64,000 nucleotides of DNA from an uncultured PS1 clade bacterium (GTDB lineage Bacteria > Pseudomonadota > Alphaproteobacteria > MED-G09), in NCBI GenBank assembly GCA_902626605.1, contig CACOFZ010000001.1, positions 37,501 through 101,500 of the forward strand, written 5' to 3'. Positions 26,033 to 46,209 of the stretch are shown one piece after another. The notes beneath the pieces are model-generated. The model searched no databases and was not told the origin of the DNA. It saw nothing but the letters and a program-made list of their open reading frames with translations. Each line of letters starts with the position of its first letter. Position 1 is the first letter of the stretch. The translations under genes were made by a program, and so were the position numbers.

Positions 26033-26072
26033 ATGATAATAATTATAAGTTCATCTTAATTCGAATATGAAT

Positions 26073-26134
26073 ACGTGGTGATTTGAGCCAGTCGGCTTGC
26101 GTCCACGTGAAAAAAAATCGCTAAAAATGACTGG
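26073..26134 (+). promoter_or_regulatory. SAM-II riboswitch aptamer
   Basis: P1 is ACGTGG (26073-26078) with CCACGT (26103-26108). The loop has the conserved TGATTTG and GGCTTGC. Past P1 comes the A-rich linker with the conserved GCTAAA. The pseudoknot P2 forms between CCAGTC (26088-26093) and GACTGG (26129-26134), a perfect 6 bp. This is the SAM-II architecture, which binds S-adenosylmethionine in alphaproteobacteria. It sits directly before metY, a methionine-pathway gene it would repress when SAM is plentiful. Confidence 0.92.
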
Positions 26135-26139
26135 GGGAT

Positions 26140-26163
26140 ACCCGGGTAAAGCCGGGTTTTTTT
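26140..26163 (+). terminator. Intrinsic terminator serving as riboswitch expression platform
   Basis: CCCGG and CCGGG pair around a GTAAAG loop, extended by an A-T pair, and seven T follow. It begins 6 bases after the aptamer, between riboswitch and metY. The GGGGG at 26133-26137 includes two bases of P2 and could otherwise pair with the terminator's CCC. SAM binding would therefore favour termination. The structure is seen; the switching logic is inferred. Confidence 0.85.
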
Positions 26164-26190: not shown

Positions 26191-27483
26191 ATGACTATAG
26201 ATAGTAAAAATCCCGAAACACTTGCCTTACATGCAGGCTGGCGTTCAGACCCAACAACAAACTCTGTTGCTGTTCCAATTCATCAAACAACAAGTTATCA
26301 GTTTGACTCGACTGAACATGCTTCAAATCTTTTTGCCCTATCAGAATTAGGAAATATATATTCTCGAATTATGAATCCTACATGTGATGTATTGGAGCAA
26401 AGAATTGCTGCTCTTGAAGGGGGTGCTGCAGCTCTTGCAGTTGCATCCGGTCAAACTGCAACAGCTTATGCTTTACAAAATATTGCTAGGGCAGGAGATA
26501 ACATTGTTTCATCAACTGATTTATATGGTGGAACTTGGAATCAATTAAATAATACATTTAAGGATATGGGCATTGAAGTAAGATTTGTGGATCCTAAAGA
26601 TCCTAATGCATTTGCGGAAGCAACTGATGATAAAACAAGAGCTTATTTTGCAGAAACATTACCCAATCCAAAATTAGAAGTTTTTCCAATTAAAGAAGTT
26701 TCTGATATTGGAAGAAAATTTGGTATTCCTCTGATAGTTGATAATACTGCCGCACCAGTTCTATGTAAGCCATTTGAGCATGGCGCAGCAGTTATTGTAT
26801 ATTCTTCAACAAAATATATTGGTGGTCACGGAACCTCTATTGGAGGACTTATTGTTGATGGTGGGAACTTTGATTGGGCTGGTGCTGGTGATAGACAACC
26901 TGCATTAAATACCCCTGATCCATCTTATCATGGGGCAGTGTTTACTGTTGCTGCAGAACCTCTAGGGCCAATTGCCTATATTTTAAAAGCAAGAACAACT
27001 ATTCTCAGAGATTTAGGCGGAGCTATGAGCCCATTGAATGCTTTTCAATTTTTACAAGGTCTAGAAACACTTCCATTAAGAATAAGAGAGCATTCAAGAA
27101 ATGGTCAAAGCGTTGCTGATTTTCTTGAAAAACACGAAAAGGTCAGCAAAGTTATATATCCTGGACTTCAAACTGGAGAGGCTAGAAAGAGAGCTGATGC
27201 CTGTTTAAAAGGTGGCTATAGTGGATTAGTTGGCTTTGAATTATCAGGAGGTGTTGATGCTGGAAAAAAATTCATTGATGGTCTCGAACTTCATTACCAT
27301 GTTGCCAACATTGGTGATGCAAGAAGTTTAGCAATACATCCCTCTAGCACAACACACAGTCAATTAACAGAAGAAGAACAAATAGCTTCAGGTGTTACCC
27401 CTGGTTATGTTCGTTTATCAGTTGGTATTGAGCACATTGATGATATATTAGCAGATTTATCTAATGCATTAAATAACGTCTAA
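26191..27483 (+). CDS. metY: O-acetylhomoserine sulfhydrylase (aminocarboxypropyltransferase)
   Basis: The 430-residue PLP enzyme makes homocysteine directly from O-acetylhomoserine and sulfide. It has the long-form MetY features ETLALHAGWRSDPTT, VPIHQTTSYQF and IYSRIMNPT, with the PLP lysine in YSSTKYIGGHG. The inserted TPDPSYHGAVF region separates MetY from cystathionine gamma-lyases. The C-terminus has HPSSTTHSQL and VRLSVGIEH. It is preceded by a SAM-II riboswitch with a terminator and followed by its own strong terminator, so it forms a single-gene unit. Methanethiol as a second sulfur donor is known for the family. Confidence 0.94.
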   Translation: MTIDSKNPETLALHAGWRSDPTTNSVAVPIHQTTSYQFDSTEHASNLFALSELGNIYSRIMNPTCDVLEQRIAALEGGAAALAVASGQTATAYALQNIARAGDNIVSSTDLYGGTWNQLNNTFKDMGIEVRFVDPKDPNAFAEATDDKTRAYFAETLPNPKLEVFPIKEVSDIGRKFGIPLIVDNTAAPVLCKPFEHGAAVIVYSSTKYIGGHGTSIGGLIVDGGNFDWAGAGDRQPALNTPDPSYHGAVFTVAAEPLGPIAYILKARTTILRDLGGAMSPLNAFQFLQGLETLPLRIREHSRNGQSVADFLEKHEKVSKVIYPGLQTGEARKRADACLKGGYSGLVGFELSGGVDAGKKFIDGLELHYHVANIGDARSLAIHPSSTTHSQLTEEEQIASGVTPGYVRLSVGIEHIDDILADLSNALNNV

Positions 27484-41332: not shown

Positions 41333-42247
41333 TTAAACTCTACTCTTAATTTTTATTATTTCTTTTTGTATTATTTCTGGATGTTCCATTGGTAAAAAAT
41401 GTGAAGAATTATTAATAACTTTAAAGGTCCCATTTGGATCTTGCTTCTTTAAAAGTCTTATTCCTGGCTCTTGAGTTGTGGAGCCAATCTCTCCTTGTAA
41501 AAGAGTGATTGGACAATTTATCTTTTTTATTGCCTCCATGGCATTATGTTTCCATGATGAAAAAGTTGCTGCTTCCCATTCAGGGTGACAAGTAAGAATA
41601 TGTTTATCTCCCTCTATTTTAGTTCCACCGTCTATGTAATCATCTAAAAAACCATCTACCCAAGTTGTAAAAGCACCTCTTCCTTTATATGATTTTTTAA
41701 TCATTTCCTTATTAGGAAATTCTCTTCGTCGCTTTAAGGTGCTATCAGCTCTTGATATAGCTTCTTTGATAAATGGCAATAATTTAGAAATAGGAAATTT
41801 TCTTCCTAGTTTTATTAAGTTTAAATTTTTTTTTGGAATTAAAACTGGCTCTATTAAAACTAATCCTGACACAAGTTCCGGCCTAGATGCAGCCACTTGC
41901 ATAATTGTTGCACCACCCATAGAGTGTCCACCTAAAATTATTGGCTTGCCTTTTTCCTCAACAAAATTTTCTACTGAACGTATTAAGTCATCTCTGTATG
42001 TTACCCAATTATACATTTTTTTTGGTATAGCCTCAGTTTCTGTAAAACCGTGACCTCTGGCATCAATTGCTCTTATATGAAATTCATTTGAAAGTGGTTC
42101 CAATAATTTTCTATAAGTTAGAGAATTAAAACCAGTAGCGTGTGAAAACTGAAAACCTGGCAATCCCGACTCATTGTTCCATTCAATATATGAAATATTT
42201 CCATCACCAAAATTGTGAAATTTTTTTGTAAACTGTTCTTTTTTCAT
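41333..42247 (-). CDS. Alpha/beta hydrolase
   Basis: This 304-residue alpha/beta-hydrolase has the nucleophile elbow GGHSMGGATIM, a strand-turn IDARGHGFTETE and a late His in NNSSHFLPMEHPE. The usual HGxP oxyanion motif is replaced by FSHATGF, as in some lactonases and esterases. Its ATG is directly adjacent to the haloalkane dehalogenase stop, so it is the last gene of the five-gene operon and is translated by coupling. The substrate is unknown. Confidence 0.87.
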   Translation of the reverse strand: MKKEQFTKKFHNFGDGNISYIEWNNESGLPGFQFSHATGFNSLTYRKLLEPLSNEFHIRAIDARGHGFTETEAIPKKMYNWVTYRDDLIRSVENFVEEKGKPIILGGHSMGGATIMQVAASRPELVSGLVLIEPVLIPKKNLNLIKLGRKFPISKLLPFIKEAISRADSTLKRRREFPNKEMIKKSYKGRGAFTTWVDGFLDDYIDGGTKIEGDKHILTCHPEWEAATFSSWKHNAMEAIKKINCPITLLQGEIGSTTQEPGIRLLKKQDPNGTFKVINNSSHFLPMEHPEIIQKEIIKIKSRV

Positions 42248-43126
42248 TTAGAGATTTCTGTACCAATTTGATATAGCCTCACCAATTTCTTTTGGTGAGT
42301 CTTCTTGAATAAAATGGTTTCCCTTAACAGTCAATTCTTGTTGATTTTTCCATTTTCTACAAAATTCTCTCTGTTTTCCTGTTAAAATTGATCCAGGGTC
42401 AGCATTTATAAATAATTTCGGTATCTCATTTAAAGACATCCAGGATGAATAATCTTCTACAATTTTACATACATCCTCAGGTTCATTGTTTATTGGGATT
42501 TGTCTTGGCCAATCTAACGTGGGTCTTCTATCGATTTCTTTTATAAAGGGTCTTCGATAAACACTCATTTCACTCTCTGTTAAATTTCGAATGATTGCAT
42601 TTGGAAGAATCCCCTCAATAAATAAATTTTTTTTCAAAATTAAATTTTCACCTGCATCTGATCTAAACCCTTGGAAAATTGATTTAGCATCTTCGGGCCA
42701 ATCATTCCATGTAATGTTTTTTACAATAGCCTCCATATAGCATATTCCTTTTACATTTTGTTGGTGCTCATAAGCCCAATTAAAACCTAATGCTGAACCC
42801 CAATCATGAATTACAAAAGTAGTATTTTTATTTATTCCTAATTCTTCAATACAGGCATCAAAATATTTTTTTTGAATATGATAGGAATAAGTATTATTAC
42901 CCTTATCAGTAAGTTTATCACTATCTCCCATACCAATTAAATCAATTGCTATGCATCTTCCTTGGTTCTCCAAGTATGGAATAATATTTCTCCAAAGATA
43001 CGAGGATGTCGGATTACCATGCTGAAAAATAATTGGATTACCTTCACCTTTTTCAATATATGACATATTTTTTCCAAGAACCTTGATATTCTTTTTTTCA
43101 GGCTCTTGATCAGATATTTCTATCAT
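42248..43126 (-). CDS. Haloalkane dehalogenase (HLD-II type)
   Basis: The 292-residue alpha/beta hydrolase has the full haloalkane dehalogenase set: halide-binding Asn38 in HGNPTSSYLWRNI and Trp109 in HDWGSALGFNWAY, nucleophile Asp108, acid Glu132 (YMEAIV) and base His271 (GNHFIQEDSP). Spacing follows DhaA/LinB, subfamily II. It hydrolyses carbon-halogen bonds to an alcohol plus halide. The ATG at 43126 lies one base after the crotonase stop and has AAAGGGA upstream; the longer frame from 43189 would overlap the crotonase by 62 bases. In the sea the natural substrates are probably brominated or chlorinated alkanes (inference). Confidence 0.93.
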   Translation of the reverse strand: MIEISDQEPEKKNIKVLGKNMSYIEKGEGNPIIFQHGNPTSSYLWRNIIPYLENQGRCIAIDLIGMGDSDKLTDKGNNTYSYHIQKKYFDACIEELGINKNTTFVIHDWGSALGFNWAYEHQQNVKGICYMEAIVKNITWNDWPEDAKSIFQGFRSDAGENLILKKNLFIEGILPNAIIRNLTESEMSVYRRPFIKEIDRRPTLDWPRQIPINNEPEDVCKIVEDYSSWMSLNEIPKLFINADPGSILTGKQREFCRKWKNQQELTVKGNHFIQEDSPKEIGEAISNWYRNL

Positions 43127-43127
43127 T

Positions 43128-43913
43128 TTATTTCCCTTTGAAATCAGGTTTTCTTTTTGAGGTAAAGGCTTCAATTCCCTCTGGGCCATCCAAACCCTTT
43201 AATTGTTCATAGAAAATTTGAGATTCTAGCTCCATCTGAGTTTCCAAACCATTGGAAAAACTTTGTCTTAGCATTTCTTTAATACCGCCGAACGCCTTAG
43301 TAGGTCCATTTGCAATCTTCATGGCAAGTTTGTTTGTTTCACTAATTACATCTTCATCATTTACAACTTTATTTATTAATCCCCAGTCAAGTGCTTCTTT
43401 GGAAGATAAAACTCTATTAGTTAACATTAATTCCATTGTTCTCTTTTTACCAATAGATCTTGGAAGGTGGAATGTTGAACTTCCGTCTGGGGTAAGGCCT
43501 GCTGCGGTATATGCAGATGAAAATTTTACATTTTCTCCGGCTACTGCCATATCGCAAGCCGAAACAAGGGATAGACCAGCGCCTGCAGCTGTTCCAGTAA
43601 TAGCTCCTATCATAGGAACATCTAAATGATCAATTTTTGATAATGCAACATGAAGTATGCCTATCATTTCTGAAATTGCTGCCCGTAGATTTTTTTGTTC
43701 GGTCATGAATTTTAGATCACCACCTGCGCAAAATATCGGACCTTCGCCTTGAAGAATAAGTACTCTTACTTTTTCTCCAGACTCACATCTAATGGCTACA
43801 TCTAGAAGCTCCTTAACAAGAGGTATGGTAATTGCATTAGCCGAATTTGGTCTATTGAGAGTTATTCTTCCAATGTTATCTTCAATATTAAATTTTAAGT
43901 TTTCATATTTCAT
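43128..43913 (-). CDS. Enoyl-CoA hydratase/isomerase (PaaG-like)
   Basis: The 261-residue crotonase has FCAGGDLKFM as the first oxyanion region and GAGLSLVSACDMAVA as the second, with AGLTPDGSSTFHLPRSIG. The Asp in TPDGSS and absence of the second hydratase Glu suggest an isomerase (PaaG/ECI-like) rather than a hydratase. It lies between the MFS transporter gene (68-base gap) and the dehalogenase gene (overlap-type junction). Confidence 0.87.
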   Translation of the reverse strand: MKYENLKFNIEDNIGRITLNRPNSANAITIPLVKELLDVAIRCESGEKVRVLILQGEGPIFCAGGDLKFMTEQKNLRAAISEMIGILHVALSKIDHLDVPMIGAITGTAAGAGLSLVSACDMAVAGENVKFSSAYTAAGLTPDGSSTFHLPRSIGKKRTMELMLTNRVLSSKEALDWGLINKVVNDEDVISETNKLAMKIANGPTKAFGGIKEMLRQSFSNGLETQMELESQIFYEQLKGLDGPEGIEAFTSKRKPDFKGK

Positions 43914-43981
43914 TATTCGTCCTTTAAAAACTATTTTTATAAATCATTTTATAGAGGTCAATAAATTTATTTTTCTATGTT

Positions 43982-45616
43982 TTAACGAGCTTCAGCTTCA
44001 AGAGGTAAAAATAGTTTTGATGCTTTATAAAAACATAAAGCCGCAATTGGATATAATATTATACCCAAGCTTAAAAGTGAATATCTTATCCCTGTCTGAT
44101 CGTAACCATTTGCTTCATTAAAGATATAATCATTGAAGAATCCTAATGCAAAAGGTCCAAGAGCAAATCCTACAACATTAGCGCTAATATAGTATATTGA
44201 TGCTGTTCTTCCTCTAAGGTTAATTGGTGAAGCATTTTGAAATGCCGCTCCATATAAGCCTGGTCCACATGACATAAAGAAAATCATCCCTGCTAGACCA
44301 ATTTGTGAGAATAGCGAGTTAGTGGAAAGGGTAAAAAGTAAAAGTGAAACCCATATCAGAGTAACAAAAATACCAGCAATTCTTAAGTGAGCATTAATAA
44401 TACCTTTTTGAATCATTTTACTAGCTATAATACCAGCACCAATACTTCCTCCAATACCAAGAAAAATATTAAAGATACCAAAATTTTGACCAGCTATTGT
44501 TTTAGGAATATCGTGAACTCTTACCAACATTTCTATTCCCCAAGCTAAAACAGAATAGCCAACTAGACCGGTTATGGTTACTCCAACAAACATTAAAAGA
44601 AAAAATTTCCAGGCTTTTAAAAAGAAAAATTCGAAGGAGTCTTCTTTTATTGTTTTGATTGATCCCCATTGATTATTGTTTGGGTCCCCTTTTTTAAAAA
44701 AACAGTATAAAGAAATAAAAGGAATTAAAATAAGCCAACCGGTTTTATTAAAATCATGACATCGTCTTATATGTATGACTGCTGATAAATATATAGCCAA
44801 TAATAAGATTATACTATTCAAAAATATTGATTGAAAAAAAGCAACTAGATAAAAGACGATAGCTAAAAGTAAACTTACAATAAAGTATTGCAGAATAAAA
44901 TCCATTCTATTTGTTCTTCCTGACGGATTAAAAAAATAGTTTAAAAAATAACTATTATCTTTTTTTAGATTTTGTTCATTTTTTTCTACGCTACCAGTTT
45001 CTGGAAAAGGTAAAAATTTAAGTGCTAATGCGAATAGTAAGCCAGGAATTGCAAATAAGAAAAAAGTTACCCTCCAATCAGAAAATTCTGATAAAAAACC
45101 CAAATATGGTTTGATTTTATCCATATTAGTTATCATTGCAGCCCCGCCCCAGCCAGCAAGTGCAGATCCTAAAAATGGTCCAGCTCCCCAAATACCAAGG
45201 GCTAAAGGAAGTTTTTCTCTTGTAAAATATGCTGATAAAACAACCAAGGCAATTGGTCCTAATGCTGCTTCTCCAACACCAACTCCAATTCTAAAAATTA
45301 TTAAATCCCAAAATTGTTGAGCTATCCCGCAGAGACCTGTTAAAAGACTCCACATTAATATTGCAAAAATAAGAACATTTTTTCGATATGGTGTATCCGC
45401 TAATCTTCCAAAAATCAAAGTTGCTATTCCAAAAAATATTGCAAAAACTGTTCCAAAAAGAAATCCTATTTCTGCATCCGTTAATAATAGCTCAGCTTTT
45501 AATTCTGGTATCATTATGGATGGAAGTTGCCTATCAGCAAATGAATAGGTATTAATTGCTGTAAGCAAAAAAGCTGCGGTCCATGCTAAGGTTGATGATA
45601 ATTTCTGTAATGGCAT
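43982..45616 (-). CDS. MFS transporter with an inserted DUF805 domain
   Basis: The 544-residue protein is about 110 residues longer than usual for the family. Residues 1-205 are an MFS N-terminal half with six membrane helices, motif A (GRLADTPYRKN, from 70) and VGVGEAALGP. Residues about 225-320 are a DUF805 (YhaH/YhaI-like) domain: GRTNRMDF, IRRCHDFNKTGW and KKGDPNNNQWG. The MFS C-terminal half resumes near 335. The reading frame is continuous, so this is a domain insertion in the central loop. It resembles Spinster-like transporters. It is the second gene of the dehalogenase operon and probably moves the pathway's substrate. Confidence 0.88.
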   Translation of the reverse strand: MPLQKLSSTLAWTAAFLLTAINTYSFADRQLPSIMIPELKAELLLTDAEIGFLFGTVFAIFFGIATLIFGRLADTPYRKNVLIFAILMWSLLTGLCGIAQQFWDLIIFRIGVGVGEAALGPIALVVLSAYFTREKLPLALGIWGAGPFLGSALAGWGGAAMITNMDKIKPYLGFLSEFSDWRVTFFLFAIPGLLFALALKFLPFPETGSVEKNEQNLKKDNSYFLNYFFNPSGRTNRMDFILQYFIVSLLLAIVFYLVAFFQSIFLNSIILLLAIYLSAVIHIRRCHDFNKTGWLILIPFISLYCFFKKGDPNNNQWGSIKTIKEDSFEFFFLKAWKFFLLMFVGVTITGLVGYSVLAWGIEMLVRVHDIPKTIAGQNFGIFNIFLGIGGSIGAGIIASKMIQKGIINAHLRIAGIFVTLIWVSLLLFTLSTNSLFSQIGLAGMIFFMSCGPGLYGAAFQNASPINLRGRTASIYYISANVVGFALGPFALGFFNDYIFNEANGYDQTGIRYSLLSLGIILYPIAALCFYKASKLFLPLEAEAR

Positions 45617-45627
45617 TATTGTTACTT

Positions 45628-46209
45628 TTAGTGCTTATAAATTGAATTTTTCGGTTTACTAAGAACTCTATGAACCATTGGCTCAAAATCATCCAATGAC
45701 ATTGACTCGTAATTTGGATCAAAGGCACATTGATCGTATAAGTGACAGAATTGAGCTGTATATTCGAAATAATCATGGCCTTTAAATTGATCCCGCATAT
45801 TCTTATCTAACCCTAAGTGATCAAAAAAGTAATAGCCTTGAAAAATTCCATGATGATTTAGCATCCAATGATTTTTTTCAGATACAAAAGGTTTTAAAAT
45901 CGCTGCGCCAATTTCAGCATGGTTATGTGATCCTAGCATATCTCCAATATCATGCATTAAGGCGCAGATAACATATTCATCATCCCTATTATCTTTAAAA
46001 GCGCGAGTTGCAGTTTGTAAACTATGCTCAAGTCTATCGACTGAAAAGCCACCATGATCATCTTTGAGTAATTTAAGGTGGTCTAGAATCCTGTAGGAAA
46101 GGTTTTGATTGAATTCTCTTGCGTATCCAGAGATTATACCCCAGTCCTCCTGTGTTGATGAGGCCATATCTTTGTAAGTAGCTCTGTCTTTTTTTATATT
46201 TTCAGTCAT
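45628..46209 (-). CDS. HD-domain protein (phosphohydrolase or diiron oxygenase)
   Basis: The 193-residue all-alpha protein has an extended HD metal site: His62 (EHSLQTAT), His86-Asp87 (MHDIGD), His97 (HNHAEIGA), His119 or His120 (LNHHGIF) and Asp159 (LYDQ). The 24-residue spacing of the first His and the HD pair, and the additional histidines, recall the mixed-valence diiron oxygenases PhnZ and TmpB as much as ordinary HD phosphohydrolases. It opens the operon leading to the MFS transporter and dehalogenase. Without a structure or alignment the reaction is undecided. Confidence 0.75.
   Translation of the reverse strand: MTENIKKDRATYKDMASSTQEDWGIISGYAREFNQNLSYRILDHLKLLKDDHGGFSVDRLEHSLQTATRAFKDNRDDEYVICALMHDIGDMLGSHNHAEIGAAILKPFVSEKNHWMLNHHGIFQGYYFFDHLGLDKNMRDQFKGHDYFEYTAQFCHLYDQCAFDPNYESMSLDDFEPMVHRVLSKPKNSIYKH

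Follow-up and report, generated by a model that had tools for sequence, protein, structure and literature searches.

An apparent lineage-specific insertion of a DUF805 domain in the central loop of a Spinster-like MFS transporter from a PS1-clade bacterium

In MFS transporters with 14 helices, two helices lie between the bundles; to our knowledge, the origin of these linkers is not settled. In NorC, two additional linker helices give a 6+2+6 arrangement that is common to POT transporters (PMC8257674), in which the linker helices are called Ha and Hb (PMC9814568), while QacA has a comparable insertion at TM7-8 (PMC10425836). In the Spinster protein HnSpns from Hyphomonas neptunium (6e8j/6e9c/6eba), Asp41, Arg42, Arg122 and Glu129 have been described as proton switches and the residues that partner them (PMC9440201). 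Here, we describe a transporter gene from a 64,000-nucleotide stretch of an uncultured PS1-clade genome (hereafter the window), which invites comparison with both groups. Like the 14-helix MFS proteins of the DHA2 (NorC, QacA) and POT types, its product is predicted to have extra hydrophobic helices between the six-helix bundles. Unlike theirs, its linker is a recognisable DUF805 domain that is missing from orthologs that are up to 94% identical. The gene also falls outside the DHA2 14-TM family, since it scored 41.2 bits against the TIGR00711 profile, well below the cut-off of 230.2.

The gene appears in the ORF list as one unbroken frame of 544 amino acids, with an ATG start and no internal stops (Table 1). 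When searched against Pfam with hmmscan, residues 23-394 matched MFS_1 (PF07690) with 101.4 bits, exceeding the cut-off of 33.4, and the C-terminal half aligned with full-length orthologs. Within this span, residues 228-318 matched DUF805 (PF05656; E 1.8e-12; 48.1 bits versus a gathering cut-off of 25.7) over nearly the full length of the profile (positions 1-110 of 111). The ortholog alignment revealed that both MFS halves are complete and that a single block is unique to the genome bearing the fusion. These results agree with the initial annotation, which had placed a DUF805 domain at about residues 225-320 of a single uninterrupted frame, with a complete MFS half on either side, and all three of the motifs it named (GRTNRMDF, RRCHDFNKTGW and KKGDPNNNQWG) are present. 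On the same strand, the transporter gene is part of a cluster that runs from an HD-domain protein through the transporter, an enoyl-CoA hydratase family gene and a haloalkane dehalogenase to an alpha/beta hydrolase. The dehalogenase ORF shares 62 nt with that of the enoyl-CoA hydratase; its true start probably lies further in, since its match to the family profile starts only at residue 25. Elsewhere in the window, a SAM_alpha riboswitch (26065-26145) lies directly 5' of the gene for a Cys/Met-metabolism PLP-dependent enzyme (26191-27483), which is ordinary for Alphaproteobacteria.

Table 1. Features of the fusion gene and its surroundings, in window positions unless another contig is given.
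Feature	Position	Strand	Basis or remark
HD-domain protein, 11 nt upstream of fusion start	45628..46209	-	PF01966; in stretch conserved among relatives
Whole fusion ORF: MFS N-half, DUF805 insert, MFS C-half	43982..45616	-	Pfam MFS_1 plus DUF805 in the same frame
MFS N-terminal half, residues 1-206, TM1-6	44999..45616	-	Ortholog alignment
D28-R29, equivalents of HnSpns Asp41-Arg42	45530..45535	-	phmmer alignment to 6e8j
R109...E116, equivalents of HnSpns Arg122 and Glu129	45269..45292	-	Alignment to 6e8j
Inserted DNA, TM6-TM7 linker, net ~336 nt, 112 codons	44628..44971	-	blastn versus L023-L026; no such block in orthologs
DUF805 domain, residues 228-318	44663..44935	-	PF05656; motifs GRTNR, RRCHDFNKTGW, GDPNNNQWG
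Insert hydrophobic helix a, residues 238-259	44840..44905	-	Kyte-Doolittle; AF2 helix
Insert hydrophobic helix b, residues 264-284	44765..44827	-	Kyte-Doolittle; AF2 helix
Third short, weakly hydrophobic segment LILIPFISLYCFFKK, residues 295-309	44690..44734	-	Length and hydropathy; lower-confidence AF2 helix
MFS C-terminal half, TM7-12, residues 328-544 and stop	43982..44635	-	Ortholog alignment
Enoyl-CoA hydratase/isomerase family gene, next downstream	43128..43913	-	Pfam ECH_1
Haloalkane dehalogenase	42248..43189	-	NF002938, 412 bits versus cut-off 241
Alpha/beta hydrolase, last gene of the cluster	41333..42247	-	Pfam Abhydrolase_6
Native stand-alone DUF805 gene (L142), outside the window	G000 contig C17:9283-9729		Conserved locus

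Among proteins of solved structure, the best relatives found by phmmer were Spinster proteins, with HnSpns (6e8j) ranking first (E 3.4e-17) and human SPNS2 also among them. Homology to HnSpns was detectable over the N-terminal half and weak over the C-terminal half, and the alignment passes over the DUF805 region. The equivalents of the four proton-switch and partner residues are unchanged across nine aligned rows. On the other hand, the charge-relay Asp142 in TM4 of HnSpns is replaced, with Ala at the aligned position 129 in both the fusion and the aligned orthologs. Based on its relation to HnSpns and the retained proton-switch residues, the host protein is a Spinster-like MFS transporter that is probably proton-coupled.

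We compared the locus with related loci from the PS1 clade, the OCS116 cluster and Rhodobiaceae. Orthologs without the DUF805 block were found in 12 of 12 related species, and the complete ones are 432-434 codons long. Identity per half was 91-94% to the closest orthologs (L004, L005) and approximately 64-69% to the most distant (L014, L015). For the N-terminal half, the insert-free loci L004-L013 and L023-L031 were 82-94% identical at the amino acid level and L014/L015 were 64-68% identical; for the C-terminal half, the values were 84-94% for the complete insert-free loci (L004-L010, L012, L013 and L024-L031) and 64-69% for L014/L015. At the DNA level, the flanks are syntenic with L023-L026 and are 83-94% identical up to both edges of the insert. 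The blastn alignments to L024-L026 extended from about 38000 to 44627-44632 and resumed from 44975-45003, with L023 behaving in the same way at the insert edges. The inserted DNA has neither start nor stop and keeps the frame at both ends; its third-position GC is 18.8% compared to 18.0% in the host gene, while overall GC differs (25% versus 34%). Since the block interrupts the TM6-TM7 linker while the backbone around it stays syntenic, its position argues for a lineage-specific insertion and not for joined genes. Judged by these alignments, the block looks like a real insertion that entered this Spinster-like transporter in its central loop, in one draft assembly.

Two forms of assembly error were considered and rejected. 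The initial annotation had raised the possibility that two genes were joined by assembly; this does not hold, since the relatives carry one continuous MFS gene in the same place, flanked by the same genes. A breakpoint between strains at the insert was also rejected, since identity between the window and its relatives across the locus tracks identity among the other relatives, and so nothing points to a chimeric contig ending at the insert. Separately, we observed that the affinity to relatives is mosaic across 43900-46000, where by dS the N-terminal half is nearest to L026 and the C-terminal half to L025; recombination close to the site of insertion may underlie this pattern.

Kyte-Doolittle analysis of the insert revealed two strong hydrophobic segments (maxima about 2.5 and 2.2, with helix a reaching 2.55) and a weak third. 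Counted from GW up to the conserved G that follows, the third segment is 15 residues long compared to a median of 22 among the 83 DUF805 domains in which this segment could be measured, and its 19-residue hydropathy maximum is 1.15 compared to a median of 2.48. Of these 83 domains, it is tied for the shortest and is the third least hydrophobic, and it ends in lysines (KK). The insert thus departs from the usual-length three-segment pattern, which is typical of DUF805 but not strictly defining. The initial annotation had counted about three hydrophobic segments; two of these are strong, but the third is not their equivalent. Five other DUF805 domains (L064, L081, L101, L120 and L121) are equally short in this segment, which suggests that a short third segment marks a subtype and is not a unique adaptation. 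The DUF805 family may comprise two topological subtypes. In an alignment of ten DUF805 sequences that includes the insert itself, the insert keeps all of the invariant positions. It also shares its signature motifs and near-full profile length with DUF805 proteins such as YhaH and YhaI of E. coli, which we take to belong to this family, but unlike them it sits inside a transporter and has a third segment of only 15 residues. E. coli YhaH has been implicated in infection by some phages (PMC12548472).

Structure prediction was informative for the insert alone. The AF2 model of the insert, built on 13 sequences, had a mean pLDDT of 75.4 and contained helices at 211-229, 237-259, 264-284 and 286-307, the last of which is continuous and of lower confidence. 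Helices a and b were modeled well, with a pLDDT of about 90 for 237-259 and of 93 falling to 88 in the 264-284 block, while the full-length fusion model had a mean pLDDT of 33.9 and was unusable for placing the insert between the bundles. Foldseek found no match to the insert model in the PDB. The basic motifs GRTNR before helix a, IRR/K after helix b and KK at the end of the third segment are all consistent with a cytoplasmic position. The simplest reading, which we infer from these features, is that the insert would make two crossings followed by a third segment that does not cross, so that the orientation of the C-terminal half would be kept (6+2+6). Since the third segment is short, weak and lysine-ended, the puzzle posed by the initial annotation, that an odd number of helices would leave the C-terminal half in the wrong orientation, is weakened but not removed: the third helix predicted by AF2 (286-307) could be a short crossing helix, in which case helix parity would fail.

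Published accounts of an MFS-DUF805-MFS architecture were absent from the literature that we searched. DUF805 searches covered 385 Alphaproteobacteria and 399 Pseudomonadota genomes (the samples partly overlap), and among the matches listed from them no other DUF805 was recognised inside an MFS. In many of the longest-frame DUF805 matches (up to 1051 aa), the ORFs were read and contained other sequence, with no MFS seen. When the fusion was compared by BLAST with L113-L119, L032, L033 and L101-L112, every match fell on the DUF805 region or overlapped it, and a search of 48 genomes under the class label of G444 found nothing further. Rare further cases may exist outside the matches listed and the frames read. 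The description of DUF805 as usually a small stand-alone protein was partly upheld, since DUF805 proteins are mostly small but also occur as fusions with sequence other than MFS.

Overall, we consider it reasonably probable that a DUF805 domain was inserted in frame into a working Spinster-like transporter, where it forms an accessory hairpin in a 6+2+6 arrangement. By this explanation, a near-complete DUF805 coding sequence lacking start and stop would have entered the TM6-TM7 linker in frame in one PS1-clade lineage, either horizontally from another DUF805 subfamily or as a strongly diverged duplicate. By analogy with the hairpins in the linkers of other MFS proteins with 14 helices, the DUF805 block would lie as a helical hairpin beside the transporter, and with its third segment out of the membrane the C-terminal half would keep its normal orientation and the protein would still transport. 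The block may tether, modulate or place the transporter, with a substrate path not formed by DUF805. Alternatively, the insert could invert or break the C-terminal half, leaving a dead or dying transporter whose gene persists only because the event is recent. DUF805 domains usually do have three hydrophobic segments, an odd number that would invert TM7-12, and dN/dS of the fusion measured against close relatives (0.05-0.09 in both halves) is slightly higher than in close insert-free pairs (0.03-0.06; L024-L026). However, these values are near enough to those of the insert-free pairs that no decay is visible, and both halves appear to be under purifying selection. The gene has no stop or frameshift, its conserved motifs are retained and the third segment of the insert is short and weak, so we regard a failing transporter as unlikely. 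An assembly artefact is also unlikely, and we give quite little credence to its specific form in which the assembler spliced a 336-nt DUF805 fragment of another organism into the contig. The insert is known from one draft genome of 35 contigs, and a second carrier genome was not found. On the other hand, it lies well inside a 176-kb contig, in a linker known to take up insertions in natural MFS proteins, with an intact frame and a third-position GC nearly equal to that of the host gene, and the backbone identity on either side tracks the identity seen among other relatives.

The source of the insert bears on a further alternative, in which the embedded DUF805 arose by internal duplication of the native DUF805 gene, diverges fast and has assumed part of that gene's function. 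The genome (1.29 Mb) holds two DUF805 places in a whole-genome search, namely the fusion gene (here within an open frame of 550 codons) and, on a different contig, a stand-alone gene, and 17 of the 18 family genomes match the insert query with one stand-alone DUF805 each. Despite its conserved locus, the native copy is only 47-52% identical to the genus copies, while the five closest copies are 84-97% alike. Its dN versus L143-L145 is 0.31-0.35, compared to 0.04-0.11 for four flanking genes (about 3-9 times lower), and its dN/dS is about 0.24-0.29 compared to 0.08-0.13 in two DUF805 control pairs. The sole genome with an embedded DUF805 thus also has the most diverged native copy, an association seen once (n=1). 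Consistent with an internal duplication, the C-terminal motif KGDPNNN of the insert resembles KGDDNNN of its siblings, and forced monophyly of the insert and the family copies was not rejected (p-AU 0.1). However, the free tree placed the insert on a long branch outside the family's DUF805 clade, within the starred 17-row set, and the insert is 28-36% identical to the family copies, which is similar to its identity to unrelated DUF805s. An internal duplicate therefore seems very doubtful to us. Searches at class, phylum and family level and among viral contigs, plasmids and phages found no close donor, with the best matches reaching about 30-40% identity, and the junction pattern was absent from viral contigs. 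We also think it rather improbable that the locus records a recent natural conversion of a 12-helix MFS to a 14-helix (6+2+6) form by a ready-made domain, with the embedded DUF805 replacing an unconstrained native gene.

Taken together, the DUF805 insertion, as represented by a single draft assembly, may illustrate a recent case in which extra helices were added to a 12-helix transporter. Since the fused and insert-free orthologs differ mainly by one block, the effect of gained linker helices would be directly testable in this family. DUF805, a widespread domain without known biochemical function, appears here physically tied to a transporter.
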